Positions 1-63,484 of a stretch of 63,484 nt of DNA are shown here, piece after piece. The notes under the pieces were generated by a model that did no database searches, had not been told where the DNA came from, and saw nothing but the letters and a program-made list of their open reading frames with translations. Source of the DNA: a virus. Position numbers and translations under genes: made by a program. The DNA lies in the IMG/VR virus record IMGVR_UViG_3300018875_000006, positions 1-63,484 of that record; one strand, 5' to 3'. Positions within the stretch are counted from its first letter, which is position 1. Each line of letters begins with the position of its first letter.

Positions 1-126
1 ACGTCTACACCGAATGGCGCGGCGGCACCTGCCGCGTGAAGTGGTGGACGGGCGAGTACCACGACGACGGCCGTAAGCGCTTCGAGTCCAAAGGCGGCTT
101 CACCGACGAGGACGAAGCCTACGACT
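1..126. repeat. Terminal redundancy, left copy
   Basis: Identical over 126 bases to 63354-63479, in the same reading frame of the integrase. This is the signature of a circular or concatemeric molecule opened at an arbitrary point. It is more likely an assembly overlap than a biological end, because the cut falls inside a gene that is intact when the ends are joined. Confidence 0.9.
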
Positions 127-1271
127 ACGGCCTCGACAAGATGGCGGAGATACGCCGCGGAGAGCACGTCTCCAACCGCGACGGCCGGACCCTCATGACG
201 GACTGGCTCGACGACTGGCTCGAGGCCATGGACCACGCCCATCTCACCGAACGCGGCTACCGGTCCGTCATCGAAAACCACATCCGCCCGTACTTCAAGA
301 AGCGGAACACCGCCGTCGCCGACATCGACGTCCTCGCCTACCGCGCGTTCCGCAAGCACATCAACAGCGTCCTCAAGCCGGGCAGCGCCAAGAACGTGAT
401 GATGGTCCTCGGCATGGTCCTCGACGACGCCGTGCCCCGCCTCATCAAGACCTCCCCTGTCGAACGGACCAGGCGGCGCGGCAAGTTCACGAGGAAGCCG
501 AAGGAGCGCAAGAAGGACGTCTCCGAAGAGGCTGTCGAGCAGCTCGCGGTGAACGCCCGTACCTTCTTCGGCAGCGAATCCGGCTACGTCTTCATGTGGA
601 CCATGGCGATGACCGGCATGAGGCCGGCCGAGCTCTACGGGCTGACGCGCGAGTACTGCTACCCGAACTGGCCTGCCACCGACCCGCGGCCGGACCCCGA
701 GGAAGAGCCGCGCTACGACGAGGATCTCGAACGCTACGGCAAGGGCGAGGGTCTGATGCCCGCGATCCGCGTGGAGCGCCAGGTGCAGTACGCGGATTCG
801 GAGCTGAGCTTCTTCCCTCCGAAATACGAGAGTTACCGGACCTTGGTGGTGCCGCCGTTTCTGGCGGGCATGCTTGAGCAGCTGCTGGCCTCGCACGACA
901 GCCGCTGGGTTTTCCCGGCCATCCAGGGCGGGAGCCTGGGCGCGATCAACTTCGACTACGCGTACTGGCGGCCGATCGCGGACGGCGCCGACGCGAGACA
1001 GGGACCGCGCGTGAGGAAGCCGCGCCCGGCTATGCCCCCGGTCCCCACGTTTGCTGGGAAGCGGCTGTACCTCCTGCGCCATGCCCACAAGGCGTGGCTG
1101 GACGAGGACGGCCACAGCAAGTACGCGGTCGAGACCCGGATGGGGCACGAGGTGCAGGGCGTTGAGGGGACGTACAGCAGCTTGACCGTGGCGATGGAGC
1201 GTGCCTTCATGAAGACACTGCAGGAGCGCTGGGAGCGCCTGCAGGAGCGCCTTGGGCGGGCTGGGGCCTGA
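1..1271 (+). CDS. int: Tyrosine integrase, 3' part (gene spans the circle junction)
   Basis: Site-specific recombinase that would integrate the phage at attP/attB. The window opens inside the gene; its first 19 bases lie at 63335-63353, giving 429 residues when the ends are joined. Numbered on the joined protein, visible features are an N-terminal arm-binding region, a core-binding region around residues 70-170, and the catalytic domain: Arg214 (TGMRPAE), Lys282 (PPKYESYRT), Arg366 (YLLRHAHK), His389 (RMGHEV) and nucleophile Tyr398 (GTYSSLT). The His that usually precedes the second Arg (HxLRH) is Tyr here (YLLRH). A non-coding attP candidate follows directly, as is usual for this class. Confidence 0.95.
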   Translation, partial: VYTEWRGGTCRVKWWTGEYHDDGRKRFESKGGFTDEDEAYDYGLDKMAEIRRGEHVSNRDGRTLMTDWLDDWLEAMDHAHLTERGYRSVIENHIRPYFKKRNTAVADIDVLAYRAFRKHINSVLKPGSAKNVMMVLGMVLDDAVPRLIKTSPVERTRRRGKFTRKPKERKKDVSEEAVEQLAVNARTFFGSESGYVFMWTMAMTGMRPAELYGLTREYCYPNWPATDPRPDPEEEPRYDEDLERYGKGEGLMPAIRVERQVQYADSELSFFPPKYESYRTLVVPPFLAGMLEQLLASHDSRWVFPAIQGGSLGAINFDYAYWRPIADGADARQGPRVRKPRPAMPPVPTFAGKRLYLLRHAHKAWLDEDGHSKYAVETRMGHEVQGVEGTYSSLTVAMERAFMKTLQERWERLQERLGRAGA

Positions 1272-20763: not shown

Positions 20764-21786
20764 CTAGGCCAGGGCCTCGACGGCCTCACACCAGGCGGCC
20801 AGGTCGGCAGTCGGGTCCAGCTCGGCAGACCGCGCCCGGGCCCGTTTCGACGCCAGCCGGTACTCGGCCGGCACAAGCAGCTTGCGCAGCACCGCCTCGT
20901 AGCCGTCCAGATCGTTGCGGTCGACGAACACGCCCGCCTCGCCCAGCGACTCGCACAGGCCCGGCGTCGGGTGGGCCACCACGGGGATGCCCGAAGCGAG
21001 CGCCTCGACGCCGACCCGTCCCCACGACTCATACGAGGACGGCATCAGCAGCACCCGCGTGCGGCCGTACACCTTCTCCCGCATGTCCTCCCCACGGACG
21101 TGGTCGAGCACCGTCACGTTGGGCAGGTCCGGGAGGATCTGCTCCCCGTAGGCGCCACGCACGGCGAGGAACTGTTGATCCGGCATCCGGCGGGCCAAGG
21201 CCTCGAAGATCTTCCCGCCCTTGGCCTCGTTGCAGTTGATCAGTGTGATGGCCTTGCCGGGTCGCGTCCGGTACTCGTCGGCGAACACCGGAGGCCGCAC
21301 GATCAGCGACGCCCCGGGCCGCACGGCCTTCGGGTATTCGGCGAAGAACAGCTCCGCCTCCCGCTCCATCCAGTGGCTGTTGTAGACCGCCAGGGCGGTC
21401 CCGCCGGCAGCCATGTCACGGAACGTCGGCCGGTGCGTGTTGTGGCAGATCACCACCACCGGCTTGCCGTAGCCGCGGGCCAGCGCACTGGTCGACGGCA
21501 CGCATTCCAGATGCGAGACCAGCACGTGCGCCTGGCGGACCGCCGAGGGGAAATCCAGGCGGGCCTCCAACGGCACCACACGGATGCCCCGGTACTCGTA
21601 GACCTTGCTGGCCTTGCCGTACCGGGACAGCCACACCTGCACATCGTGCCCGCGCTCCACTAGAGGCCGCAGCATCGACACGAGCATGTGCTCGGCGCCC
21701 GCATTGTGCTCCGGCGGCATCGCGTGCACGCGGGCCACGATACGGAGCGCGGTCCCGCCCGGCGCGGAAGCCGGGACCGCCCCCAT
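20764..21786 (-). CDS. GT4-type glycosyltransferase inside the head operon
   Basis: 340 residues. N-terminal Rossmann-like part: MPPEHNAGAEHMLVSMLRPL, then YGKPVVVICHNTHRP. C-terminal GT-B half: AITLINCNEAKGGKIFEALA, LLMPSSYESWGRVGVEALAS, then GIPVVAHPTPGLCESLGEAG, with the E-x7-E motif of retaining GT4 enzymes. It would transfer a sugar from a nucleotide sugar. The start overlaps the major capsid stop by ATGA, so it is made with the capsid; the capsid or tail is the likely acceptor. Virion glycosylation by structural-operon glycosyltransferases is known in actinophages. Acceptor and sugar are not deducible. Confidence 0.88.
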   Translation of the reverse strand: MGAVPASAPGGTALRIVARVHAMPPEHNAGAEHMLVSMLRPLVERGHDVQVWLSRYGKASKVYEYRGIRVVPLEARLDFPSAVRQAHVLVSHLECVPSTSALARGYGKPVVVICHNTHRPTFRDMAAGGTALAVYNSHWMEREAELFFAEYPKAVRPGASLIVRPPVFADEYRTRPGKAITLINCNEAKGGKIFEALARRMPDQQFLAVRGAYGEQILPDLPNVTVLDHVRGEDMREKVYGRTRVLLMPSSYESWGRVGVEALASGIPVVAHPTPGLCESLGEAGVFVDRNDLDGYEAVLRKLLVPAEYRLASKRARARSAELDPTADLAAWCEAVEALA

Positions 21787-22745
21787 CAGGACCCCGACGG
21801 GGTGCCGGTGAACTTGACGAACGCCTCGGCGTCGCCCAGGACGAAGCCGTAGTACGCCTCGGCGAGGAGCAGCACCAGGTTCTCCTGGAACGCGGAGTGG
21901 ACCGCGCCGTCCTCGTCGATGTACGTAGCCTCACGGGACAGCTTGATGGAGATGTCCATGCCGACGCCGTAGGCGGCCTGCGAGAAGTCGCCGCCGATGG
22001 CGCGCAGCCCCGAGTCGACCGAGGTGGACTGGCGGCGCAGCTTGCCGGAGACGCTGCGAGAGTAGGCGATCGGCTCGCCGATCAGCTCGCCCTGCAGCGC
22101 CGCGCCAGTGCCGGCGCCGGGCTGACGGGTTGCCACGAACAGCGGCTCACCCGTGGTGGACGTGGCGGCGAGGAGCTTCGGCTTCAGCCGGTTGTCGGCG
22201 ACGGTACCGGTGTAGTCCCAGTCGTCGTCGATGATCTCCTCCATGCCGGCGACGAAGTCGCCCCAGATGCCGCCCTGGTTCTGCGCGGTCGTGCCGAGCG
22301 AGACGGCCTTGGAAGTGGCGGCCAGGTAGTCGACGAAGGGGCCGGTGCCGCCCTTCATGTTCTTGCCGTGGATCGTCGCCATGTCGAAGGCCCGGGCGAA
22401 CGCGGTCGGCAGGTCCCGCTGCAGCTGCGTCCACAACCCAGCCGCGTTGGAGTTCGCGACCTCCATCGACACGGGGATGAGCACGGCGATCTTCTTGCCG
22501 CTCATCTGCTTGACCTCGACACCGCCTGAGCTGAGCGGCTTACGGCCACCCTCGGACACCCAGTCTGCAGTCGGCACGTCCAGCGGCACCGGCACCGCGG
22601 TGTTCGCCGTCATCGACAGCGGCACCCGGCGGGCCAGCGACATCACGGCAGAGCCTTCGACGGACTTCTCGAAGATCGGGCCGACCAGCGTCTCCGGAAG
22701 GAAGATCGGGTCGATGGTGGACAGCTTGATGGGATTCGTCGCCAT
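21786..22745 (-). CDS. Major capsid protein, HK97 fold
   Basis: 319 residues. Typical signatures: FLPETLVGPIFEKSVEGSAV near the N-terminus, VPLDVPTADWVSEGGRKPLS (the E-loop region) and KKIAVLIPVSMEVANSNAAG (start of the spine helix). The A-domain contains EPIAYSRSVSGKL; the end carries LVLLLAEAYYGFVLGDAEAF. No N-terminal delta domain is fused; a separate scaffold gene precedes it. ATG start with upstream AGGTAG. Confidence 0.93.
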   Translation of the reverse strand: MATNPIKLSTIDPIFLPETLVGPIFEKSVEGSAVMSLARRVPLSMTANTAVPVPLDVPTADWVSEGGRKPLSSGGVEVKQMSGKKIAVLIPVSMEVANSNAAGLWTQLQRDLPTAFARAFDMATIHGKNMKGGTGPFVDYLAATSKAVSLGTTAQNQGGIWGDFVAGMEEIIDDDWDYTGTVADNRLKPKLLAATSTTGEPLFVATRQPGAGTGAALQGELIGEPIAYSRSVSGKLRRQSTSVDSGLRAIGGDFSQAAYGVGMDISIKLSREATYIDEDGAVHSAFQENLVLLLAEAYYGFVLGDAEAFVKFTGTPSGS

Positions 22746-23416: not shown

Positions 23417-24190
23417 TCAGCGCGAGCTCGGCAGCGGGTTGCTGTCGTGCTCAGCGAGCGCCAGGCGGAACCGCCTGAGCTGATCACCCGAATGGGGCGC
23501 CGCGTATTCGCGGTAGATGCGCTCCCACTCGCGGGCCTGCGGAGACAGCTCGAAACGCTGCCCCCGAAACACCGGGATCACGCCGCAGTGGCAGCCGTCG
23601 TGCGCCCGGAAATCTGCCGTGTCCTGCGCGTACACCGCGCCGCGCAACGCGAGCATCTTGCAGAAGGTGCACGCCCCGAAGGCCGCCGAACGGGCCCACG
23701 CCGTGGCCTGCCGGTCCTGCCGCACCGCCTCCCGGACGGTGCCGCGTCCCGTGTCCGCGACCAACTTCTGCGCCACCAGCTCGGCCTTCTTCTCGGCCTG
23801 CACCAGGCGGACATCCATCGGCTGCAACTGGGCTGGCGTCGCCTCCTCCGGCTCCCGCGGCCACAGATCCTTGACCGCCCACCGCAGCGACTCCTCCGTC
23901 TGCTGCTCGGGCGGCGGATCCGCCAACGGCACCGCGAACGCCCCCGGCACCCCGGCGACCTCCCGCTGCCCGTCGTAGAAGTCGGCCGCCAAGGACGCCG
24001 ACACCCTCGCGTACTGGGCGATCACCGCGTCCATCGCCGTCAGCCAGTCAGGAACGGACTCGCGCAGCCGCTGGGGCAGGATCAGCCGCCGCAAGCGCCG
24101 CACATCCCGCACCAGCAGCCGTGTCAAGCCGACCTGCGCCGCCCGGTAGCGATTCGCGTCGTCACTGCTGTCCGAGACCGTCGTCGCCAC
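23417..24190 (-). CDS. Minor head protein (MuF/head-maturation type)
   Basis: 257 residues, GTG start overlapping the portal gene by 29 bases. The C-terminal half has ARSAAFGACTFCKMLALRGA then FRAHDGCHCGVIPVFRGQ, the Cys/His pattern of actinophage minor head proteins that follow the portal. The N-terminus is helical. It is probably ejected or sits at the portal vertex. Whether it has protease activity cannot be told. Confidence 0.8.
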   Translation of the reverse strand: MATTVSDSSDDANRYRAAQVGLTRLLVRDVRRLRRLILPQRLRESVPDWLTAMDAVIAQYARVSASLAADFYDGQREVAGVPGAFAVPLADPPPEQQTEESLRWAVKDLWPREPEEATPAQLQPMDVRLVQAEKKAELVAQKLVADTGRGTVREAVRQDRQATAWARSAAFGACTFCKMLALRGAVYAQDTADFRAHDGCHCGVIPVFRGQRFELSPQAREWERIYREYAAPHSGDQLRRFRLALAEHDSNPLPSSR

Positions 24191-25598
24191 CGGTCACCTC
24201 CGCAGCCGACGGCACCTCGCCCGCGCCGCCCAGCGCAGCCAGCCGCTTCATGAGCTGCCCGCCAGCCGCAGCGCCGGCGCTGCGGCGCCGTTCGGCCGCC
24301 ACCCGGCGCCGCTGGTCCTCAGACAGGCCCGCCATCTCCAGCACGACGTCGCCGTCGGCCGGCAGGATCCCGGCCTGAACCATCTTGACCGCGGCGTCCG
24401 TCTGGGCCGCGATCGTCGGGGTGGCAGGGTTCCGCCACACGCACTCGATGCGGCGTTCCTTCGGCGGCGGCTCGCCGTCCCGGAACCAGATCGCGAGCCG
24501 CATGGCGTCCCGATGCGTCGCCCCGAAGCGGCGGATCCGCCGTTCGGCCTTCTTCACCAGCATCGCCTCAGACGAGCGGATCGCGTCCGCCGAGGCCGGG
24601 TTGTCGCTGGTGTAACCCAGCATGTGCGGCGGCAGACCCAGCTGCGTCGCCATGATCCGCGCATACAGGTCAATGATCTTCGTCTGGCCGGACGGGTCAT
24701 GCGCCGCGAACTGGCCGACCGTCGGCACGTCACCGTTTTCGTCCCGTTCCAGCGCCAGCACGCGCCCGATGTACGTCTCCCACGCACTCTTGGCGTTGCC
24801 CTCAGCATCCTGGAAGGCGCTCTCCGACACACCCAGGATGTAGCGCTGCGGCGCCTGAAAGAACTCCGCGCCGACCTCGATGCCCATGAGCCGGCGGCAC
24901 GCCGCATCCGTGATCGACATGACCTCGGGCGTGATCTCCGACTTCCCGACCCGATCCGCGGTGCGCTGCCGGTTCGCCATCCGCAACACCGGCACGATCC
25001 CCAGATTGTGGATGTCACGGTCCAGGACTTCCCAGCCGCCATCGACCTCGGCCGCCAGGATCTTCTGGTTCGGGAGATCGAGCGTGACGATCCGGACCCC
25101 GTCCTCCACGGACTCGCGAAGCGCCGACGTCGCCATCCGAAGCCGCGCATCCCAGAACATCGTCATGTCCAGAGGACTTTCGAAGGTGATCAGCGGTGGG
25201 CCGTCACCCTCACCCGAGCCGACCGCCACGTACTCGCGGCCGTAGGTCAGCGCATCCAGATGCGCCAACGACGCCTCGTCGTACAAGTCGTTCGACTCAG
25301 CGATCTCCTCCAAGTCGGAGGCATCCGCGCCGTCCGCCCAGCGAAACGCCTCCAAGTCAAGACGCTGCTCCAGCGCCTCGACGCCGATACGCGGCCAGCC
25401 GATCACCGTGTGCAGGCCCTTGAGCTGCGGGGGAATCGCGATGCCGAGATCCCGCACAAGCTGCCCGCCGTTGAAGTACGCGTCCAGCAACTGCAGCTTG
25501 AAACGCTGCGACAGCAGATCCGAGCGCAGCGCCGTCAACAGGTCCAGCTCGTCCGGCGACAGCGACAGGAGCGGCAACTCGGGAATGACCGCAGTCAT
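24162..25598 (-). CDS. Portal protein
   Basis: 478 residues from ATG 25598, overlapping the terminase stop by ATGA. Family-typical pieces: LQLLDAYFNGGQLVRDLGIA, LVLE-like stretch in the clip, IHNLGIVPVLRMANR, and MATQLGLPPHMLGYTSDNPA with SADAIRSSEAMLVKKAERRI, seen in SPP1-type portals of actinophages. The dodecameric ring forms the DNA entry vertex. A longer frame extending into the terminase gene was not used. Confidence 0.92.
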   Translation of the reverse strand: MTAVIPELPLLSLSPDELDLLTALRSDLLSQRFKLQLLDAYFNGGQLVRDLGIAIPPQLKGLHTVIGWPRIGVEALEQRLDLEAFRWADGADASDLEEIAESNDLYDEASLAHLDALTYGREYVAVGSGEGDGPPLITFESPLDMTMFWDARLRMATSALRESVEDGVRIVTLDLPNQKILAAEVDGGWEVLDRDIHNLGIVPVLRMANRQRTADRVGKSEITPEVMSITDAACRRLMGIEVGAEFFQAPQRYILGVSESAFQDAEGNAKSAWETYIGRVLALERDENGDVPTVGQFAAHDPSGQTKIIDLYARIMATQLGLPPHMLGYTSDNPASADAIRSSEAMLVKKAERRIRRFGATHRDAMRLAIWFRDGEPPPKERRIECVWRNPATPTIAAQTDAAVKMVQAGILPADGDVVLEMAGLSEDQRRRVAAERRRSAGAAAGGQLMKRLAALGGAGEVPSAAEVTGGDDGLGQQ

Positions 25599-27268
25599 CG
25601 CAGCACCACCACCCTCCCAGCGCGCGCCTTCTTCTTGCCGAGCCCCTTGGCCAGCGCGTCGACCCGGCACTGCCACGCGAGGACCGCAGCCACAGCGGCA
25701 TCGATCTTGCGGGGTGACTCCGGATGCTCCTTGGCGATCTGGATACCGGACCGCGACTCGCGCCGCCGCGCGTTCAGGATGTGCCTCGTCAGAACGCTCG
25801 AACCGTCATGCGTCAGCTCCCCGTCCACGACCGACGAGCGGAACTTTTCCAGCGCCCGCACAATCTGCACCGCCCGTCCACCCGTCATCCACCACTCGAT
25901 CGGGTGCTGCATCGACGACTTCACCTTGAGGCGACGCCCATGCTTCGCCTCAAGAGCCGCGATGTGCGACTCCCACTTCGCCGGGTCCGCGTACATGCCG
26001 ACCACTCGGTAGTTCCGGAAGGCGTCCTCCACTGCGGCCAGAACCTCGACAGTGGGCACCTGCCAGTCGGCGCCGAACGGGCCATCCGGCTGCTCCCAGC
26101 AGCCCAGCAGGAAGAGGTGCCCATCCGACACGCGGCAGCCCACCAGTGCGGTCGCATCCGTCACCCCGCGCGAGCGTCGTCGCGAGCCATCGAAACCGAG
26201 AACGATCTCATCCCGGTCCCCGACAACCTTCTCCGGCGCCGCCACAGCCGCCCACTCCGGTTGGCTGATCCAGCCGTCCGTGGCGTGTGTGACCTGGTTG
26301 AGGTAGTAGCGGCGGGCATCCTGGGGATCCGTATCCGGGTCCCAGTACTCCGCCAGCAGGCGCCGCAGATTCACCCAGCCACCGTTGCGGTCCGCCGAGT
26401 CGCCGTAAGCCACTGCCAGCCCGTCCAGCAGCGAGCGCTCCTCGGCCGGGTCCGTATCTGCCGGCGCCTCACGATGGTCGAAGAGAAGGCCCTCGTCGAG
26501 CTTCAGCTTGCCTTCCTGCTGCTTCTTCCACGCCTCGAACGACCTCTCGGCTACAGACTCCTCTCCCGGGATAAAGGCGTTCGGCGTCTCGACGGAGCAG
26601 CCGTTCACCTTGCCCAAGTTGCGGCGGATCGTGGCAGCCAACTTCCGACCTCCGTTGGAGGGGATCCACGACTCCGTCTGGTCCATCGCCGAGAACACCG
26701 GTCGGAACCCCTCTCGGCTCGTGCCCGAGCTGGTGACGAACTCGATGCGTCCGCGAGGAACGTTGACGAAGCTCTCCATCGGCTCAATGTCGTAGGCGTC
26801 GAGCACGGGCCCGCCGCGCGCCATCTCCAGCAGCGGATCCCATGTGTTCGCCGTCTGATCTTCCGATACAGCGACGATCTGCACCTTCGCCTTGAACCCC
26901 AGCGAGGTCCAAGGGCGCCCGACCGGCTCCCCGTCCGCATCCCAGCCGTCCGGAACAACATCCGCCAGAGCCTCAGCAAGACACAGAGCTGCGACCAGAG
27001 GCGACTTCCCCCAGCCCTTCGGGCGCGAGAGAACGGCCCGCCGAATCTTGCGTCCGTTACGCAGAGCGCGCCCCCCGACGGCCGGCCCCTTGAAGTCGGG
27101 GTCGATCGCGTACAACTGCAGGACGAACATCGCCTGCTCATCGGTGAACTCCAGCGGCTCACCAGCAGCCGGGCCGTCCGGAACGATCAGGTTGTCCGCG
27201 ATCCAGCCCAGCACCTGGTAGCCGAGAGTCGGCACCTCTCCGGGATAGGAAGGTCCGCGCCAAGGCAT
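25595..27268 (-). CDS. Terminase large subunit
   Basis: 557 residues. The ATPase has Walker A SRPKGWGKSPL (81-91) and a Walker-B-like AMDQTESW (D197, E200). The nuclease domain has IVLGFDGSRRR (D361), VVGMYADPAKWE and RKIDAAVAAVLAW as its acidic sites. It packages DNA into the procapsid and cuts the concatemer. It is followed by portal and preceded at 5 bases by the small subunit. Confidence 0.95.
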   Translation of the reverse strand: MPWRGPSYPGEVPTLGYQVLGWIADNLIVPDGPAAGEPLEFTDEQAMFVLQLYAIDPDFKGPAVGGRALRNGRKIRRAVLSRPKGWGKSPLVAALCLAEALADVVPDGWDADGEPVGRPWTSLGFKAKVQIVAVSEDQTANTWDPLLEMARGGPVLDAYDIEPMESFVNVPRGRIEFVTSSGTSREGFRPVFSAMDQTESWIPSNGGRKLAATIRRNLGKVNGCSVETPNAFIPGEESVAERSFEAWKKQQEGKLKLDEGLLFDHREAPADTDPAEERSLLDGLAVAYGDSADRNGGWVNLRRLLAEYWDPDTDPQDARRYYLNQVTHATDGWISQPEWAAVAAPEKVVGDRDEIVLGFDGSRRRSRGVTDATALVGCRVSDGHLFLLGCWEQPDGPFGADWQVPTVEVLAAVEDAFRNYRVVGMYADPAKWESHIAALEAKHGRRLKVKSSMQHPIEWWMTGGRAVQIVRALEKFRSSVVDGELTHDGSSVLTRHILNARRRESRSGIQIAKEHPESPRKIDAAVAAVLAWQCRVDALAKGLGKKKARAGRVVVLR

Positions 27269-33760: not shown

Positions 33761-34171
33761 TCAGACGCGCCAGCTTCCGAGGCGGCGGCGGGTGCGGGGG
33801 TTGGATCCGTCGGCGACCTGCTTCTCCAGGGCGCGCAGTTCGGCTTCGTCGAGGACGCCTTCGTAGTTGCCGCCGAGCGGCCCGGCGACCTGCGGGGCGG
33901 GGGCGGCGATGTTGCGGACGCCGCGCGGGGGCTGCTCGTAGACGGTGCCTTCCTGGGCGAGGAGCCCGGAGGCGGAGAGGTGGCTGGTCATCCACTCGCC
34001 GGTGATCGGTGACCGCCGGTCGAAGGTGTGGGCGGAGTAGAGCTGGCTGTCCTCGTAGGGGGCGATGTTCCGGGCGACGTTGCGGAGGGTGTAGACGGTC
34101 TTGCCCTTGCTGAGCCAGCGGTTGAGTTCCTTGGCGCCCTTCTTGGTGGGCTCCCAGCTGCGTCCGGCCAT
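33761..34171 (-). CDS. Hypothetical protein (136 aa)
   Basis: ATG with GGAGACCG upstream. The N-terminus is basic and possibly nucleic-acid binding (EPTKKGAKELNRWLSKGKTV, YTLRNVARNIAPYEDSQL); the C-terminal half is acidic with GNYEGVLDEAELRALEKQVA. Not recognised. First gene beyond the octamer cluster that follows tra. Confidence 0.6.
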   Translation of the reverse strand: MAGRSWEPTKKGAKELNRWLSKGKTVYTLRNVARNIAPYEDSQLYSAHTFDRRSPITGEWMTSHLSASGLLAQEGTVYEQPPRGVRNIAAPAPQVAGPLGGNYEGVLDEAELRALEKQVADGSNPRTRRRLGSWRV

Positions 34172-34234: not shown

Positions 34235-34251
34235 GGCACCCAGTCGGTGCC
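34235..34251 (+). terminator. Small hairpin followed by T-run
   Basis: GGCACC / GGTGCC stem with a 5-base loop and CTCTTTT after it, read on the + strand. Short, but the only T-tract-bearing stem in this area. Confidence 0.35.
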
Positions 34252-34290
34252 TCTTTTGCGGTGGTTTGCGGCGTGGTCGAGGCGGGGTCT

Positions 34291-34386
34291 ACCCGGTCGG
34301 GCGACCGGGTGCGAGGCGGGCCCGACCGGGAGACATACCGGGTGATATCGGGGCGAGACCACGCACTGACCGGGTCTCGACCGGGT
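34291..34386. repeat. GACCGGGT octamer cluster beside tra; candidate clt locus
   Basis: Six octamers in 96 bp: GACCGGGT at 34303-34310, 34368-34375 and 34379-34386, GACCGGGA at 34324-34331, TACCGGGT at 34336-34343, and an inverted copy ACCCGGTC at 34291-34298. Start-to-start spacings of the five direct copies are 21, 12, 32 and 11 bp, near whole helical turns. They lie within 10 bases of the end of the TraB/FtsK-like gene. In Streptomyces plasmids TraB recognises short GACCCGGA-type repeats (TRS) at clt next to traB. Function here is inferred from that analogy. Confidence 0.6.
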
Positions 34387-34394
34387 GATATGCC

Positions 34395-36455
34395 CTACTT
34401 TCCGAGAGCTTCGGCGAGCTGCTCGCGGGTGTAGCCGTTCGGGTTGGTCATGCCGTCGAGCGCGCCGAGCTTGCGCGTGCCACCCGCCTTGGCGTCCCGC
34501 AGGCGGGCCTGCAGAACAGGCTCGGTCAGCCCCTGGTAGCGGTCGGGCCGGTGCGCGATCAGCAGTTTCAGAAGCCGCGGGGTGCGGGCCCTGTCCACGT
34601 TGGCGGAGTCGAGGACGGCGAGGCAGTCGGCCAGCAGGTCCTTGTGCCCGGTTGCCGCCCGGTCGGCCTTGCCGTAGTGGGCGGCGAACCCGGTGAGGGT
34701 GCCGGCGTCAATGCGGAGCTGCCGGCCGCGCATGCAGATCTCTCGGAACTCGGGGATCGTCATGAAGTCGGTCTTGAGGGTGACGTGGCCTTCCTCGCCG
34801 CCCTGGTCGAGGACGACGACGCCCTTCTGCGAGTCGAGCAGCATGTGGGGCGCGGCACCTGCGGCGACCGCGTCGTCACCGAGGACCATCCGGGAGCTGG
34901 CGGCGCCCTTGACGCGGAAGCAGGCGCGCTTACGGCAGACGTCGCGCAGCATGGTCGGCACGCTGGTGGCGTCCGGGCGCTGGGTGATGAACAGGCCCAT
35001 GCCGCCCACGTACCGGCTGACGCGCACGAACCGGGCCATCGTCTCGACGAGGACGTCCTTTCCGTTCCGGCCGCGGTCCTTGGCGTCCGGGTCGTCCTCC
35101 GTCTTGATCTTCATCATGGCGGCGGCGTCCAGGAGCTCCTGCAACTCATCCACGATCAGCAGGGTCAGGCCGCGCTTCCACTCCTTCGCCAGCTCCGGGG
35201 TGAGCTTGCCCTCGGGGCAGCGCTCCGGATGCTCCTCCGACAGCTGCTCCAGGCGCTCACCGATCTGCTGCATGTCGGCGATCAGCTCGTTGAGCAGGCC
35301 GAGGAAGGCGAGGATCTTCTCCGGGGTGTTGCCCGCGACGTAAGAGTGGGCGAACTGCTTGGTCCCCACCCAGTCCGGGCCGGCCTTGCCGGTGGCGACG
35401 TGGACGGTCATGTACGGGTCGAGCGCAGCGGCGGCAGTCACCAGGCGGGCCAGGAAGGACTTGCCGTAGTCGGGCAGGCCGCCCAGCAGGATGGAGCACC
35501 ACACCAGCTCAAGAGCGTGCCGCGCTCCGCGGGCGTCGGTTCCCAGTGGCACCCCGTACTGCCAGAAGTCCAGGCGGTCCGCGGTGAGCAGCGGCGAGGG
35601 CACCGGCTTGGAGCCGTAGGGGTTGGGCTCGTTCGCCACCCACAGCACCACCTGCCCCTCGTGGCCGTCTTCGGAGGTGTCGGCACGCATCTCGATCTGG
35701 GACTTCTTGACCCGCATCGACGAGGCCAGTTCTTCGGCGCGGGAGGTGGCGGCGGAGGCCTTCATGCCGCGGGGCAGTTCGATCGTGGCGGTCCATCCGG
35801 GCCCGGCCGGCTGGATGATGCCGACGATGTGAGTCTCCTCGCGTTGCGCTTCGGTGATGATCCCGGCCTTGATGAGCGCCGTCACCAGGTCGGCTTCGCC
35901 GCGGATCTGGGCTGCGTCCCGCGGGGCGACCGGGTCCTCAGGCGACTCGACCGCGTCGTGCTGGTCGCGGTCGCGGCCGTGGAAGGCTCCGATCCCCCAG
36001 GTGCCGAGGAGCGCGAGCGCGTCGATCCACAGGCTGCCGGTGACCGCTCCGAAGCCGACTCCCCCGGCGACCGCCCCGGCGACCCCGGCGGTCTTGGTCG
36101 CGAAGGTCTTGCGGTGCTGCTTGTACTCCGCGCGGTAGCCGTCGGCGAGCTTCTTGAAGTGGGCCGCCTGGCCGATGTCGCCGGCCGCGTCGCGCACGGC
36201 CCGGTCGGCGTCGGCGATCAGCTGCGGGTAGTGGTCGTGGTAGCGCTCCAGCCAGCGGCGGCCGAGCTGTCGGTAGCCGCGGACGGTGTGCGGGAGCAGG
36301 GCCAGGCGGGCGACCCGGTTGGTGCGGGCTGCGACGGTGCGGGCGGACTCGACCCACGTCGGCCGGCCGGGCTCGGCCTGGTCCTTGTAGACGGGGGTGG
36401 CGGGCGGCGGGACGAGCGTCAGGGTGGGGCGCTCGTCGGGCAGAGGGGTAGCCAT
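34395..36455 (-). CDS. TraB/FtsK-SpoIIIE-like DNA translocase
   Basis: 686 residues. An N-terminal region has two hydrophobic segments (about 122-160). The motor has Walker A GGLPDYGKS (325-333) and Walker B LLIVDE (432-437), followed by MGLFITQRPDATSVPTMLRD, the FtsK-type sensor. The C-terminal ~90 residues end in NPNGYTREQLAEALG, a winged-helix-like part analogous to the FtsK gamma / TraB recognition domain. Streptomyces conjugative plasmids and AICEs transfer double-stranded DNA with a single protein of this kind. It precedes an octamer cluster and is followed upstream by a DUF2637 membrane protein. In a phage, a role in transfer or in moving DNA is inferred. Confidence 0.85.
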   Translation of the reverse strand: MATPLPDERPTLTLVPPPATPVYKDQAEPGRPTWVESARTVAARTNRVARLALLPHTVRGYRQLGRRWLERYHDHYPQLIADADRAVRDAAGDIGQAAHFKKLADGYRAEYKQHRKTFATKTAGVAGAVAGGVGFGAVTGSLWIDALALLGTWGIGAFHGRDRDQHDAVESPEDPVAPRDAAQIRGEADLVTALIKAGIITEAQREETHIVGIIQPAGPGWTATIELPRGMKASAATSRAEELASSMRVKKSQIEMRADTSEDGHEGQVVLWVANEPNPYGSKPVPSPLLTADRLDFWQYGVPLGTDARGARHALELVWCSILLGGLPDYGKSFLARLVTAAAALDPYMTVHVATGKAGPDWVGTKQFAHSYVAGNTPEKILAFLGLLNELIADMQQIGERLEQLSEEHPERCPEGKLTPELAKEWKRGLTLLIVDELQELLDAAAMMKIKTEDDPDAKDRGRNGKDVLVETMARFVRVSRYVGGMGLFITQRPDATSVPTMLRDVCRKRACFRVKGAASSRMVLGDDAVAAGAAPHMLLDSQKGVVVLDQGGEEGHVTLKTDFMTIPEFREICMRGRQLRIDAGTLTGFAAHYGKADRAATGHKDLLADCLAVLDSANVDRARTPRLLKLLIAHRPDRYQGLTEPVLQARLRDAKAGGTRKLGALDGMTNPNGYTREQLAEALGK

Positions 36456-36461
36456 GGCGGG

Positions 36462-37811
36462 TCAGTCCTCCTGCTTCTTGGCTGCGTTCAGGCGGCGCTT
36501 CGTCTCGCCGTGGAGGCGGCGCGCGACAGGGTGGAATCGGGGTGTGTCGCCGGGCTTCCGGACGGGCGGAGTGGGCTTGTACGAGGACCGTCGTGCGGGC
36601 GCCTTAACTTGGATCGCACGCTGGGCGTTCATGGTCTTGCCGAGGGTGTTCACGGGGGCGCCAGTAAGGGCTGCTTCGACGCGCTTCTCGGCGGAGCGGC
36701 GGGCGGTGATGGACTCGATCGTCTCGCCCGGGTCGCAGCCCTTGATGTTGCGGTAGGCGCGCGTCCACACGGCGTCGTCGTCGGGGGTCGATCCGACCGC
36801 CGCAGCGATCTTCACGGCCTCCTTCCACACGTCCTCGAACTCCCGCTGACGCTCCGCCGCGAGCCGCTGCCGTTCTGCCTCGGCAGCCTTCTTCGTGGCG
36901 GCTTCCTCGGCGGCGCGCCGCTTCTCCTCCGCAGCCCTCTCCTTGGCTGCCGCAGCCTCGGCCTTGCGCTGCGCGCGGCGCTCCCGCCAGGTCGGCTTGC
37001 CGTCCCGCTTGCGGATGCGGCCGTGCTCGTGGAGGTCCCACATACCGGGGCCAGCCACCGAGGCGAGGGCAGTGCCGAAGGCGGTCGCCGCGTCGAACGC
37101 TTCGAGGCCGTGGACGATGTTGATCGTGGCGGCGGTGAGGGCTCCCGCCCATGCAACGAGCCGGTAGTGCCAGTGGGCACGGCCCGCCGTGACCGCGGCC
37201 GCCGCGCCAACGAGGGCGACGAGCGCGATCACCTCAATGAACACGGGGGCGACGAGCAGGTACTCGGCGTTCGGGTCATAGAAGGCGGCCATCTGGACGG
37301 GCAGGGCCACGCCGGCGCACAGGGCGTAGAAGGCCATCGCGACGCGACGCCAGCGCGTGCTGGACTTCTCGACCGCCTCGCTCTTGCTGGCCTCGGCTTG
37401 CTGCTCCTCCTCGGCCTTACGGGCGGCGTCGGCGCGGGCCCGGTCGGCTTCGTCGCGGCGCCGGTTGTGCTCGGCGATCCGCGCCTCGGAAGCGGCGGCC
37501 TCCTCGGCGGCCTTGCGCTCGGCACGGTCGTTGGCGAGGCGCAGCTTGCGCGCCTCCTCCTCCGCCTTGACGCGGATCGCGTCCGCCTGGGCCTCGGCCT
37601 TGAGCCTCTGCTCCTCTGCCTCGGCCCACGCCTTGGCGCGGATCGCTTCGGCCTTGGCCTGAGCGACGAGGTCGCTGTCGATCTGCGGCGTACTGGCCAG
37701 GGAGGACGGTGCGGTCTCCGCGGTGGGGGTGGCCTCTATGGGCTGCCAGTCCCCCAGCACGGGCGGGGCGGGCGGCCTCTCGTGGCCGTTCACCTGCGGG
37801 CTGGCAGTCAT
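36462..37811 (-). CDS. Spd-like (DUF2637) membrane protein with coiled-coil arms
   Basis: 449 residues, 6 bases upstream of tra. The N-terminal ~150 residues and a stretch after the membrane part are long Ala/Glu/Arg/Lys coiled coils. The centre has four transmembrane helices (about 158-270), e.g. VAMAFYALCAGVALPVQMAA and IEVIALVALVGAAAAVTAG, the DUF2637 pattern. The C-terminus is basic. In Streptomyces plasmids SpdB2-type proteins with DUF2637 spread transferred DNA in the mycelium. Pairing with a TraB-like motor is the plasmid arrangement. Confidence 0.75.
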   Translation of the reverse strand: MTASPQVNGHERPPAPPVLGDWQPIEATPTAETAPSSLASTPQIDSDLVAQAKAEAIRAKAWAEAEEQRLKAEAQADAIRVKAEEEARKLRLANDRAERKAAEEAAASEARIAEHNRRRDEADRARADAARKAEEEQQAEASKSEAVEKSSTRWRRVAMAFYALCAGVALPVQMAAFYDPNAEYLLVAPVFIEVIALVALVGAAAAVTAGRAHWHYRLVAWAGALTAATINIVHGLEAFDAATAFGTALASVAGPGMWDLHEHGRIRKRDGKPTWRERRAQRKAEAAAAKERAAEEKRRAAEEAATKKAAEAERQRLAAERQREFEDVWKEAVKIAAAVGSTPDDDAVWTRAYRNIKGCDPGETIESITARRSAEKRVEAALTGAPVNTLGKTMNAQRAIQVKAPARRSSYKPTPPVRKPGDTPRFHPVARRLHGETKRRLNAAKKQED

Positions 37812-41958: not shown

Positions 41959-41997
41959 TGCAGCGCCGATGCAGCAGGAGTGCAGCCGCCGTGCAGT
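41959..41997 (+). repeat. Four RTGCAG repeats at exact 11-bp spacing
   Basis: GTGCAG at 41959, ATGCAG at 41970, GTGCAG at 41981 and GTGCAG at 41992, each 11 bp apart, ending about 30 bp before the HTH-Nudix gene. Equal helical phasing points to a cooperative operator array. Confidence 0.6.
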
Positions 41998-42025
41998 CCG
42001 CCCGAATCGATCCGGCAAAGGGGCG

Positions 42026-42658
42026 ATGATGGACGTCGTCGAGACGTGGAGCGGGAGTCTGGCGACCGCGTTACAGGCCGCCCTGCGGATGACGAACGAG
42101 CAGTTCGCCGAGCATCTCGACGTGAGCGTGCGGACGGTCGCCGGCTGGCACGCCGAGCCTGACACCGTCCCCCGCAACGACACCCAGCAACTGCTCGATA
42201 CCGCCTACGAGAGGGCATCCGCCTCGGTGCAACGCCGCTTCAGTCTCTTGGCCCGCCCCAAGCCGAACGCCATGGAGGCGCAGGCCTTGCGCGTGGCCAT
42301 CGCCGTCGTCATCCGCGATGACGAGGTGCTACTCGTCTGCCGGCGCGGGTCGGACTCGCTCAGCTGGCAGTTCCCGGCCGGCGTGGTGAAGCCGGGCGCC
42401 TCCCCCGCGGTCGTGGCGGTCGAGGAGACACACGCGGAGACCGGCGTCCGCTGCACGGTCCGCGCGCCACTGGGGTCCCGGGTCCATCCGATCACGGGCG
42501 TGGTCGCCGAGTACCTGGCATGTGACTACCTGATGGGCGACGCCACGAACCGCGACCCGCTGGAGAACGCCGACGTGGCCTGGGTGCCCCGGTCGGCTCT
42601 GACCCGCTTCATCCCCAAGCAGTCCATCTATCCGCCGATCTTGGAGGCGCTGGCATGA
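42026..42658 (+). CDS. HTH regulator fused to a degenerate Nudix domain
   Basis: 210 residues from ATG 42026 (AAAGGGG in front; ATG 42029 possible). The N-terminal HTH reads ALQAALRMTNEQFAEHLDVS and VRTVAGWHAEPDT. The C-terminal Nudix fold begins LRVAIAVVIRDDEVLLVCRR. The Nudix box GVVKPGASPAVVAVEETHAE then TGV has Ala where the first Glu should be and Glu for Arg, so catalysis is doubtful. It probably senses a nucleotide and controls the coupled gene. The promoter carries the four RTGCAG repeats. Confidence 0.85.
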   Translation: MMDVVETWSGSLATALQAALRMTNEQFAEHLDVSVRTVAGWHAEPDTVPRNDTQQLLDTAYERASASVQRRFSLLARPKPNAMEAQALRVAIAVVIRDDEVLLVCRRGSDSLSWQFPAGVVKPGASPAVVAVEETHAETGVRCTVRAPLGSRVHPITGVVAEYLACDYLMGDATNRDPLENADVAWVPRSALTRFIPKQSIYPPILEALA

Positions 42659-43059
42659 CCGAGACGACCACGAAGCCGGGGATCTCCGCGGCGATCATCA
42701 CGAGCGAGGGCCGTGTGCTTATGGTCCGTCGCCGGGTGAAGGAGGGCGAGCTGTCGTGGCAGTTCCCGGCCGGCGGCATCGAGCCGGGCGAGACGCCGGA
42801 GGAGGCCGCGGTGCGGGAGACATTGGAGGAGACCGGCGTCAAGGTCGAGGCCGAACGGCTGATCGGCCAGCGCATCCACCCGAAGACCGGCCGCGAGATG
42901 AGCTACACCGCCTGCCGGGTCATCGACGGGGAGGCGCACGTCGCCGACGCCGACGAGCTGGACGCCGTCGCCTGGGTGTCACTGGAGGAGATCCCCGATT
43001 ACGTGCCCTACGGGCTGTTCGAGCCCGTGCAGAGGTATTTGACTGAGGTGATCCCGTAG
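42655..43059 (+). CDS. Nudix hydrolase
   Basis: 134 residues, ATG overlapping the HTH-Nudix stop (ATGA). The Nudix box GGIEPGETPEEAAVRETLEE then TGV is complete (G-x5-E-x7-RE-x2-EE-x-G). It hydrolyses nucleoside diphosphates linked to X with Mg. Closely similar start and layout to the C-terminal half of the gene before it, so the pair may come from duplication. Terminator follows. Confidence 0.92.
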   Translation: MTETTTKPGISAAIITSEGRVLMVRRRVKEGELSWQFPAGGIEPGETPEEAAVRETLEETGVKVEAERLIGQRIHPKTGREMSYTACRVIDGEAHVADADELDAVAWVSLEEIPDYVPYGLFEPVQRYLTEVIP

Positions 43060-56891: not shown

Positions 56892-58007
56892 TCAGGCGGC
56901 TGCAGCCTTGGCGGGGTCGCGGACGGGGGTGACGAGGTACTGGAAGGTGGGCTCGTCGATCGCCGCGTGGATGAGGGCGGGCTTGGCGTAGGTGGTGAGG
57001 TCGATCGCGACCTTGCCGTCGATGGGGGTCAGCCCGTCGAGGAGGAAGCGCGGATTAAACGCCACGTCGAAGGAGTCGGCACCTTCGAGCTGGCAGTCGA
57101 TGCGGGCTTTGCCGGTGGCTCGGGTGTTGCGTAGCGCCTGGACGGTCATGTGGTCGCTGGCCATGGACAGTTCGATCGCCTGGTGGCCTTCGAGGAGGAG
57201 CCCGATGCGGCGGAGTGCCTCCCGAAGTTCCTCAACGTCGCACGTGGCGGTCGCCGTGTAGTCCTTCGGGAAGGCCCGGTCGGCGTTGGGGAACTTGTCG
57301 ACGGGTAGCAGCCGGGAGACGGAGGTCCGGTTGCCGGCCTGCACGCCCGCCGAGCCGACAGTGAGCGCCAGGTCGACCGCTTCGGCCGCGCCCGCTGTCT
57401 TGGCGATGTCGACCAGGCCCTGCCCAGGGAGCAGGGCGGAGACGGCGTCCCCGCTCTGCTGCCACGGGATGTACTGCAGAGCGACCCGGTACCGGTCGGT
57501 GGCCATAACCTGCAGCCGGTCATCCATCGGTTGCAGGCGGATGCCGCCCAGTTCGGGCATGGCCTGCGTCTGATAGTCGACGGCCGGGGCGACGTTGGCG
57601 ACCGCGGTGGCGAACAGGTCGCCCGGGACGCTGCCGGACAGAGCCGGCATGGACGGCAGGCTCGGATAGCTGTGGACGTCGAGCGGGTTGAGGTGGAAGT
57701 CATTCTGCCCGGCGACCAGGTCGACGCCGCTGTCGCTGCTACTGATCTCCACCTGCGTCGGGGGCAGCGCGCTGAGGATGTCGGCGAAGATCCGGCCCGA
57801 CACTGCGGCCTTCCCGTCGTCGATGACGTTCGCGTCGACGGTGACGGACGCGGACACCTCGACGGAGCTGTAGGCGACGGTCAGTTGGTCGCCGTCCGCG
57901 GTGAGCAGTACAGCGAGGGCGGTCGGGTCGATGCCCTTCGTGGGGATGTGGCGGGCGATCCAGCGGGCGGCGTCCGCCAGCTCCGCCTGCTCGATTTGAA
58001 GCTTCAC
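56892..58007 (-). CDS. dnaN: DNA polymerase III beta-clamp homologue
   Basis: 371 residues, close to the normal clamp length of about 370. Domain marks: KLQIEQAELADAARWIARHI, VSASVTVDANVIDDGKAAVS, FATAVANVAPAVDYQTQAMP with ELGGIRLQPMDDRLQVMATD (the TDxxR centre as TDRYR), RLLPVDKFPNADRAFPKDYT, then FNPRFLLDGLTPIDGKVAID and the end PTFQYLVTPVRD. A phage-specific clamp would hold host or phage polymerase on DNA. Coupled to the PAPS-reductase-like gene at 58004 by overlap. Confidence 0.93.
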   Translation of the reverse strand: MKLQIEQAELADAARWIARHIPTKGIDPTALAVLLTADGDQLTVAYSSVEVSASVTVDANVIDDGKAAVSGRIFADILSALPPTQVEISSSDSGVDLVAGQNDFHLNPLDVHSYPSLPSMPALSGSVPGDLFATAVANVAPAVDYQTQAMPELGGIRLQPMDDRLQVMATDRYRVALQYIPWQQSGDAVSALLPGQGLVDIAKTAGAAEAVDLALTVGSAGVQAGNRTSVSRLLPVDKFPNADRAFPKDYTATATCDVEELREALRRIGLLLEGHQAIELSMASDHMTVQALRNTRATGKARIDCQLEGADSFDVAFNPRFLLDGLTPIDGKVAIDLTTYAKPALIHAAIDEPTFQYLVTPVRDPAKAAAA

Positions 58008-59203
58008 GACGCCTCCGCAAGGGCTCGCAGACTGCGGTGCTGTTCTTCGGTGATCAGGCCCTTAGCGAGCCACTCGTCATCCAGGGAGCCCTGGATGAGG
58101 CCGCCGCCGACACACTTCGCGCACGCCGGGGCGGGCACGATCTCCTCAGGCCCGGCGGGCTGCGGATTGAAGTCGGACGGCGGGGGTGTCCCCCATTTCC
58201 ATGCGGCGATGCCGGCCTCGCGGACGATCCGCTGCTCTTCCCGGATCCGCTCGGCGACCTGCGGGTAGAAGAACCCGATCTCATCGAGCTCGTTGGGCTT
58301 GGCGTAGCAGCCGCAGGTGCAGTCGCCGGACATGTGCAGGTTGGCGGTGACTTCGTTCAGCGGCAGCGCCTGCTCGAAGCACATGCGGTGAATCTCGTGC
58401 TTGTGGACCTTGTGGCAGCGCCAGCGGGCCCGGTACTCACGCATGTGGGCGTTGGTCCAGTGGACGAGTGCCGACACCCAGACGATCGCCCGCTTCTGGT
58501 CGATCTCCTCGGCGTTCTTGAAGCGCTTGTCGGACTCGTCCCACCTCATGCCGGCGATGTACAGCACCTTCTTGCGGGTGCCTTCGGTGCCGACGTACTG
58601 CTTGCGCAGCGCCTGCAGCGGCTGGTCCTTGAGTCGCATGTACATCACGTTGTGCGGCTGGCCGTTGCCCCCCGGGCCGGGGAAGCCGCGCCAGACAGGG
58701 CGGCCCACGTTCGGCGGCCGCGTCGACCGCACGTTGCCGAGGACCAGGTCCAGATAGGTGACCTTGGGGTGGAGCTCCAGCAGCTTGGTGCTCCACATCG
58801 CGGCGACCTCGCGGACGTGCTGCGTTGTCTGGGGGATGGCGATGCCGGTGTTGACGTGCACCATGCCCTTGAAGTGGTGCCGGAAGAGAGGCCGGTCGGC
58901 GAGGTAGCGGCGCAACATGTGCTGCAAGATCACCGAGTCGTTGCCGCCCGAGTACAGGCCGAACATCCCGGCAAGCTCTCGCGGGCCGTGGTTCTGCACC
59001 CGCCCCTTCTCGCTGACCGTGATCGCGTCGCCGGTCGAGTACTTCACGATGGCCTGGTCGAGGAGCTCGAACGTTCGCTGCTCGGCCTCCTCCAACGTGC
59101 GGGCCTTCCACGCCTCGTCGCCCGAGGCCTTCGGCGGCTTTTTCTCGACGCCATCCGGCATGCCGGGCAGCATCTCCCCGCCGTCACGGGCGCGGGACCT
59201 CAC
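58004..59203 (-). CDS. PAPS reductase-like / PP-loop protein
   Basis: 399 residues from GTG 59203, overlapping the previous stop (GTGA). The PP-loop is FGLYSGGNDSVILQHMLRRY; then HFKGMVHVNTGIAIPQTTQH, YIAGMRWDESDKRFKNAEEI, and a Cys/His cluster RMCFEQALPLNEVTANLHMS with DCTCGCYAKPNELDEIG, and late PACAKCVGGGL. Members activate substrates with ATP and handle sulfur; DndC of phosphorothioate systems is a relative. SGGNDS rather than SGGKDS is a variant seen in phage members. Substrate unknown. Confidence 0.85.
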   Translation of the reverse strand: MRSRARDGGEMLPGMPDGVEKKPPKASGDEAWKARTLEEAEQRTFELLDQAIVKYSTGDAITVSEKGRVQNHGPRELAGMFGLYSGGNDSVILQHMLRRYLADRPLFRHHFKGMVHVNTGIAIPQTTQHVREVAAMWSTKLLELHPKVTYLDLVLGNVRSTRPPNVGRPVWRGFPGPGGNGQPHNVMYMRLKDQPLQALRKQYVGTEGTRKKVLYIAGMRWDESDKRFKNAEEIDQKRAIVWVSALVHWTNAHMREYRARWRCHKVHKHEIHRMCFEQALPLNEVTANLHMSGDCTCGCYAKPNELDEIGFFYPQVAERIREEQRIVREAGIAAWKWGTPPPSDFNPQPAGPEEIVPAPACAKCVGGGLIQGSLDDEWLAKGLITEEQHRSLRALAEAS

Positions 59204-59388
59204 TGGTCGTCTCCGCCCTGCTCGAACGGAAGCTCCTCGCGCTGCTGCGGGAGGAAGGCCGGTGGAGCGGTGAACGGGCTGCGCCCAGGCGCAAAGCCGA
59301 GGCATTCCTGGCAGGCCGGTCGGGGCTCCGTCTCCGGCGGCGGGGTGATGGCGTCGAGCGGGAACAGAGACAGCTGCTTGGCCTTCAT
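59200..59388 (-). CDS. Small Cys-containing protein (62 aa)
   Basis: ATG with AGGAAGAAG upstream. KAKQLSLFPLDAITPPPETE, RPACQECLGFAPGRSPFTAP, then LPQQREELPFEQGGDDQ. The KQLSLFP start is a beta-clamp binding-like motif (QLSLF), which may be meaningful beside a DnaN gene. Coupled to the PP-loop gene. Confidence 0.6.
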   Translation of the reverse strand: MKAKQLSLFPLDAITPPPETEPRPACQECLGFAPGRSPFTAPPAFLPQQREELPFEQGGDDQ

Positions 59389-63334: not shown

Positions 63335-63484
63335 ATGGCCAGACGCGCGAGGGACGTCTACACCGAATGGCGCGGCGGCACCTGCCGCGTGAAGTGGTGG
63401 ACGGGCGAGTACCACGACGACGGCCGTAAGCGCTTCGAGTCCAAAGGCGGCTTCACCGACGAGGACGAAGCCTACGACTTTACG
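63335..63484 (+). CDS. int: Tyrosine integrase, 5' part (continues at position 1)
   Basis: ATG 63335 with AAGGGGG just upstream. The first 19 bases (63335-63353) are unique and read MARRARD; from 63354 the sequence repeats positions 1-126 in the same frame, so the gene continues at position 1. The last five bases (63480-63484) do not match 127-131 and look like an end artefact. Full length is 429 residues. Confidence 0.9.
   Translation, partial: MARRARDVYTEWRGGTCRVKWWTGEYHDDGRKRFESKGGFTDEDEAYDFT
63354..63479. repeat. Terminal redundancy, right copy
   Basis: Identical to 1-126. The next base differs (T here, A at 127). Confidence 0.9.

Follow-up and report, generated by a model that had tools for sequence, protein, structure and literature searches.

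The closest described relatives of the locus reported here are the transfer modules of Streptomyces plasmids, in which the TraB protein binds 8-bp repeats, the TraB recognition sequences (TRS), in the transfer site clt through a C-terminal winged helix and moves double-stranded DNA (dsDNA), and in which Spd proteins aid the spread of TraB systems across septa (PMC3583192, PMC4170104, PMC5133688). On pWTY27, clt comprises 16 bp of the traA end plus 159 bp downstream, with four TGACACC direct repeats described, and transfer of pZL12 requires a tra gene and two neighbours (PMC3583192). The TRS of pSVH1 is GACCCGGA (PMC5133688); for pSAM2, no clt has been described (PMC9513070). Here, we analyzed a 63,484-nucleotide stretch of viral DNA (the window), which is the entire IMG/VR virus record IMGVR_UViG_3300018875_000006 and in which a spd-like gene, a tra gene and a cluster of GACCGGGT-type octamers follow one another. 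We consider it likely from sequence comparison that this is a plasmid-type dsDNA transfer module on a temperate Streptomyces siphovirus, with the octamer array as the site of the motor.

An initial annotation, made from the window alone, had claimed six such octamers behind tra. They are indeed present within 34291-34386, four of them exact and two as variants (Table 1), and the five sharing one direction succeed each other on the plus strand at 21, 12, 32 and 11 bp, as had been listed there in other order. The GACCGGGT copies at 34291 (-) and 34303 (+) form a perfect dyad, and the array begins about 10 bp or less from the tra stop codon (34395-34397). While the cluster itself stood, its orientation and extent had to be corrected: the copies read against tra transcription, and the array is two-armed in relatives. 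No other spot in the record is as dense in GACCGG/CCGGTC (5 exact copies in about 100 bp; next best, 2). Because the cluster has P = 0.0026 if the record's 109 copies are evenly placed, its significance in the window alone is modest, and GACCGGGT is found 9 times in the record versus 4.8 expected, both of which speak for a G+C-rich word having clustered by chance in a genome that is itself rich in G+C. Against this stand a lattice that all relatives conserve more strongly than the spacers and the fact that each motor family is followed by an array of its own; given the conserved lattice, we reject chance clustering as extremely improbable.

The relatives in question are nine viral contigs whose Tra is 77-85% identical to that of the window (class A). 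Absence or scrambling of the octamers in close relatives with an intact tra, which had been named as the observation that would speak against a transfer site, did not occur, as the array is present at the same positions in 9/9. Its sites keep fixed distances from the tra stop with a best period of 10.5-10.75 bp (mean resultant, 0.84-0.86), which agrees with the near-whole-turn spacing proposed initially, and motif columns are more conserved than neighbouring columns (0.89 versus 0.74, p = 8e-7). Starting from the stop, CCGGTC copies come first and GACCGG copies follow past a centre about 100 bp downstream, the two opposed arms extending about 155 bp beyond tra. A contig scan of genomes yielded a single relative, from S. 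tricolor, on the very contig that holds locus L010. Two Streptomyces chromosomes carry a class-A-like tra together with spd, the small gene behind the array and a degenerate CCGGTC array; window-type phage structural genes were not found near tra on these two chromosomes.

By profile and fold comparison, the TraB/FtsK-like and DUF2637/Spd-like identities proposed for the two large genes held up, though Pfam did not recognize them: the scan gave no model for Tra at E 0.1 and none that named the Spd-like protein, which is why the FtsK assignment is made by profile and fold. Tra is an FtsK/SpoIIIE-type motor with Walker A (GGLPDYGKS, residues 325-333) and Walker B (LLIVDE, ending at 437) motifs. 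It matches the phage FtsK/SpoIIIE family phrog_1358 (E 1.3e-20) and is 26-33% identical to FtsK/SpoIIIE proteins of 60 plasmids, mostly from Streptomyces; a profile built from 52 Tra relatives finds the FtsK structure 2ius (E 8.5e-15), and the AlphaFold2 (AF2) model has TcpA of pCW3 (6o1w) and FtsK bound to dsDNA (6t8o) as its top Foldseek matches (E about 1e-13). A single-sequence search of the PDB returned only noise, tblastn against cultured phages found neither window-type Tra nor Spd, and a phage collection containing ZL12 gave no match to Tra. Hydrophobic helices lie near residues 120-158, in a low-confidence part of the model. The C-terminal winged helix, in contrast, has a predicted local distance difference test score of 86-97 in the full model and a mean of 91.6 when modelled alone; its Foldseek matches are weak and mostly to winged-helix nucleic-acid-binding domains.

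The neighbouring Spd-like membrane protein has a counterpart in the same position on plasmid NBC_01310, a Spd-like protein with 39% identity, and a profile-profile comparison with plasmid DUF2637 proteins gave a probability of 99.6 (E 7.8e-25). The matched DUF2637 proteins adjoin plasmid tra genes, and the window gene is of this Spd-type spread kind. On the other side of the array, many virus loci encode a homologue of the same small protein of about 135 aa directly downstream, and the homologue is also found beside the class-A-like tra on the two Streptomyces chromosomes.

For a wider view, the comparison took in some 50 sequences, namely related virus records together with Streptomyces plasmids, among them the conjugative pFP1 and pSG5; a search with Spd gave 17 further viral loci, whose Tra proteins then served as queries for more. 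The block of tra, spd and octamers is conserved, and its arrangement corresponds to that seen on conjugative plasmids of Streptomyces (pFP1, pSG5 and others; clt of pWTY27). The tra slot behind the spd-like gene is filled by different Tra families, nearly each followed by its own array of short repeats, with GACCGG, TGAGCA, CGAGCA, CGAGGG, GTAGCA, CGTGACG, GTAGAG and GACACC as motifs. Of 53 loci, 74% had a top 6-mer that occurred 6 times or more within 215 bp after tra, compared with 1.5% of 1998 control windows drawn from the same loci. Plasmids show arrays as well: GCGACG on NBC_01310, GTGTCC/GACACC on two linear plasmids, CTCTAC/GTAGAG on pFP1 and GTCCGG/CCGGAC on pSG5; in pIJ101, used as a control, clt does not adjoin tra. 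Four loci (L002, L004, L008 and L009) combine a window-type Tra and array with no detectable homologue of the window Spd, whereas L012-L014 encode a Spd 71-74% identical to that of the window yet carry a different Tra and a different array. As judged from this pattern, the array travels with tra and not with spd or the downstream gene.

Two further observations concern these arrays. Most arrays of classes B, C and E, and that of pFP1, contain a second inverted pair, CGCAGGTCA ... TGACCTGC, about 85-100 bp apart (for example, L013:10253-10350, L026:9398-9500 and L084), which stays constant while the octamers change and recurs only twice elsewhere in 586 kb; class A, window included, is without it. 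The pair might serve a second, shared protein as its site. Separately, a related phage contig (G081:C182; terminase 58% identical, tail genes present) encodes a Tra 48% identical to that of the window, with another wing and a CCGGAC/GTCCGG array.

The most informative comparison came from class C, in which most Tra proteins share 72-84% identity with their query. The same ~11 positions bear TGAGCA, CGAGCA, CGAGGG or GTAGCA, with a single form at all positions in any given phage. Motif similarity rose with identity over the last 55 residues (r 0.63; partial correlation given the motor, 0.69; permutation p 0.0005) and not with motor identity (r -0.01). The residues involved fall within the predicted wing: wings with TLGYLN (T..Y.N) go with TGAGCA and those with P(I)G(D/A)ID (P..D/A.D) with CGAGCA, and the arginine of NP(R/N)GY becomes asparagine where CGAGC becomes CGAGG (CGAGGG sites; L028 versus L064). 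The wing of the window class also reads NPNGY, and its site contains CCGG. In these alignments, the site switch tracks a few wing residues of the C-terminal winged helix and not the remaining protein, a covariation suggesting that the Tra wing reads the octamers.

This covariation strengthens the earlier proposal that the motor recognizes the repeats, and we regard recognition of the array by the phage's own Tra as highly likely. Because the array switches with the wing of the motor and follows tra, and because the FtsK-like motors of lytic Samistivirus phages and of ZL12 have no array, the motor encoded beside the array very probably reads it as a clt-like site. The same data bear on two other uses of the repeats. 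As the array sits in a 223-bp gap before the conserved small gene, and GntR-type regulators are common in such loci, it might be an operator through which a repressor, or Tra itself, regulates tra or the next gene. We consider this quite unlikely: tra lies upstream of the array, the array sequence switches with the Tra C-terminus although the next gene is of the same family in many loci, and a fixed regulator would be unable to read so many different motifs. Autoregulation by Tra through the array may be a second role. Replication-origin iterons or a partition centromere, of both of which phased short repeats are typical, are less probable still, since neither an initiator nor a ParB gene adjoins the array, the array covaries with the Tra wing, and it occupies the same place on plasmids whose replication genes lie elsewhere.

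Several observations weigh against a transfer module with an array that is read by Tra. In the window, arm 1 is well kept and arm 2 is degenerate (GACCACGC, GACTGGGT), and at L011, L012, L015/L053, L023 and L038 the repeat signal is weak or absent. The correlation between C-terminus and motif was not seen in class B, the wing and motif of which barely vary, which accounts for its absence. Finally, no FtsK gamma domain appeared among the 50 best Foldseek matches of the Tra C-terminal domain, none of which reached E <=0.001.

Taken as a clt-like site, the array suggests the following mechanism. The module would consist of the FtsK/TraB-type Tra, its Spd-like membrane partner and the array directly behind tra, with about 10 helically phased, TRS-like octamers in two arms of opposite orientation. 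Reading of the octamers by the wing of the winged helix would load Tra onto the element that encodes it, most probably the phage genome in its excised, circular form, and Tra would then pump this element as dsDNA via hyphal contacts and/or septal cross-walls. Motor and sites would co-evolve as a matched pair, with phages and plasmids trading the two as a cassette. That Tra physically binds the octamers, is loaded there and transfers DNA is inferred, as is whether the DNA moves by conjugation or spreads through the mycelium. Since sites and the DNA-reading tip of the pump vary jointly across relatives, the phages of this family probably can move their genome from cell to cell; that Tra and the array bring about actual transfer or spread of phage DNA is an outcome that we favour by a modest degree.

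The main rival accepts that the motor reads the array but confines its use to the phage cycle or to one mycelium: segregation of an extrachromosomal prophage, clearing of septal DNA, mycelial spread within a colony, or help with packaging or entry. A related FtsK-like gene is found in lytic Samistivirus phages, so such motors can serve phages that do not conjugate; in addition, some relatives reach a large size (80-88 kb) and could be plasmid prophages, and plasmid Spd proteins act in septum-crossing spread (PMC5133688). The Samistivirus motors, however, come without an array, conjugative plasmids share the array-bearing form, and the window has an integrase, with no partition (Par) gene seen among the open reading frames (ORFs) scanned. 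We therefore rate this phage-serving use as unlikely, though well ahead of the other alternatives, and continue to prefer a transfer module.

The remainder of the window is that of a phage. The record, classed as linear, has a terminal overlap of 126 bp (1-126 versus 63354-63479) inside the integrase gene, and since the tyrosine integrase ORF is intact across the joined ends, the genome is either circular and closed or circularly permuted. With genes for portal, major capsid protein, tape measure, tail and terminase in addition to the integrase, the virus is a temperate siphovirus of the Caudoviricetes; also encoded are a KilAC-type antirepressor, a Gp3-like directionality factor and a DNA polymerase III beta clamp. 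Among related records, a portal is present in 26/35 and a tyrosine integrase in 23/33. Besides the integrase spanning the record ends, a second tyrosine-recombinase gene lies at 4711-5634. The beta clamp gene adjoins a phosphoadenosine phosphosulfate reductase-like gene (56892-59305), two NUDIX hydrolase genes stand side by side at 41969-43059, and a glycosyltransferase-like gene (20764-21786) is placed among the capsid genes; a glycosyltransferase gene likewise lies beside the capsid gene in the phage-plasmid of Streptomyces sp. NBC_01005.

Table 1. Features of the transfer module and phage backbone in the window
Feature	Position	Strand	Basis or remark
Conserved small protein directly behind array, no known family	33761..34171	-	Homologues in related loci
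Whole two-armed clt-like array, extent judged from relatives	34235..34386	.	Class A alignment
Octamer GACCGGGT, first site of arm 2	34291..34298	-	CGACC invariant in class A
Octamer GACCGGGT, arm 1	34303..34310	+	Exact copy
Octamer variant GACCGGGA, arm 1	34324..34331	+	CCCGGTCG invariant in class A
Octamer variant TACCGGGT, arm 1	34336..34343	+	CCGGTAT invariant in class A
Octamer GACCGGGT, arm 1	34368..34375	+	Exact; position kept in relatives
Octamer GACCGGGT, arm 1	34379..34386	+	Exact; position kept in relatives
tra, 686-aa FtsK/TraB-type DNA motor	34395..36455	-	phrog_1358, FtsK profile, AF2 and Foldseek
Tra C-terminal winged-helix domain, residues 596-686	34398..34670	-	AF2, Foldseek
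Wing, residues 655-676, putative base-reading element; N673 is the R/N switch position	34428..34493	-	Residues covary with array sequence
Spd-like membrane protein, 449 aa, DUF2637-like core	36462..37811	-	Plasmid homologue and profile match
Major capsid protein	21786..22745	-	phrog_10, E 9e-43
Portal	24162-25676	-	phrog_104, E 4e-130
Large terminase	25595-27268	-	ORF; 58% identical in G081
Tyrosine integrase, start	63335..63484	+	Continues at 1-1271 over 126-bp overlap; reading frame intact over join
Tyrosine integrase, remainder	1..1271	+	ORF scan and join

Phages and conjugative elements are usually seen as separate vehicles; here, a plasmid transfer module is stable in many temperate phages and would offer lysogens a non-lytic route through mycelia. 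To the broadest version of this view, in which a widespread family of temperate Streptomyces phages moves in two ways, as virions and as a dsDNA conjugative element, by means of an interchangeable motor-site cassette whose wing residues set the octamer and whose ~11 sites switch in concert, we would give an even chance. If true, the specificity of TraB-type motors would follow a natural code that can be read, and elements would face a barrier against pumping one another's DNA. The relatives amount to a natural experiment on the choice of DNA by an FtsK-type motor, with dozens of motors and visibly different sites, and since few residue changes are matched to few base changes, TraB site recognition, cassette exchange and the evolution of specificity become directly testable. 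They also suggest a simple way to find clt sites, including in elements without a described clt such as actinomycete integrative and conjugative elements (AICEs). Parts of the module belong to a known kind, and plasmid-phage conjugal transfer has already been reported for pZL12. In the literature covered, which included little primary work on TraB, three aspects tentatively appear new: the presence of TraB-clt cassettes in a siphovirus family with integrases, the exchange of these cassettes, and the concerted in-place switching of sites with wing residues.

How, then, does the locus compare with known systems? The lytic Samistivirus phages (Jay2Jay, Mildred21; phrog_1358) share a related motor, 32-37% identical to class C Tra, but there the next gene abuts the FtsK-like gene, the array is absent and no Spd-like neighbour is annotated. 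ZL12 (pZL12), pSLE1 and NBC_01005 are, like the window, Streptomyces phage genomes with plasmid features and an FtsK-like gene. However, ZL12 gp071 and its NBC_01005 homologue are of a different FtsK-like type followed by a terminator-like hairpin, an octamer array was not found behind either, and NBC_01005 and pSLE1 carry ParAB, which was not seen among the window ORFs scanned. We rejected assignment of the window to the ZL12-type phage-plasmids, as its scanned ORFs include no Par gene and its Tra is not of the gp071 type. The NBC_01005 element itself (L029/L030, NZ_CP108705) is a circular 88-kb plasmid, a ParAB phage-plasmid with a ZL12-type FtsK-like gene, the portal of which is 75% identical to the window portal.

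AICEs such as pSAM2 likewise combine an integrase with an FtsK-type Tra and use the excised circle as transfer substrate. Unlike them, the window has a full virion gene set, and an AICE Rep module was not found among its scanned ORFs; the presence of portal, capsid, tape measure and terminase led us to reject an AICE, that is, Int, Rep and Tra without virion genes. Of the best structural matches of the motor, TcpA of pCW3 works alongside other conjugation proteins, and bacterial FtsK reads its KOPS sequences through a gamma domain, to solved examples of which the Tra C-terminal domain has no significant match. The closest agreement is with the TraB-clt plasmids (pWTY27, pSVH1, pFP1, pSG5), which share an FtsK-type motor of about 690-740 aa, 7-8 bp repeats directly behind tra and, in many cases, a Spd or DUF2637 gene before it; the clt stretch of pWTY27 is much like that of the window array. 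What sets the window apart from these plasmids is the octamer GACCGGGT, a module residing in a phage with portal, terminase, capsid and tail genes and, compared with the four direct repeats of pWTY27, phage arrays of about 10 phased sites in two opposed arms.

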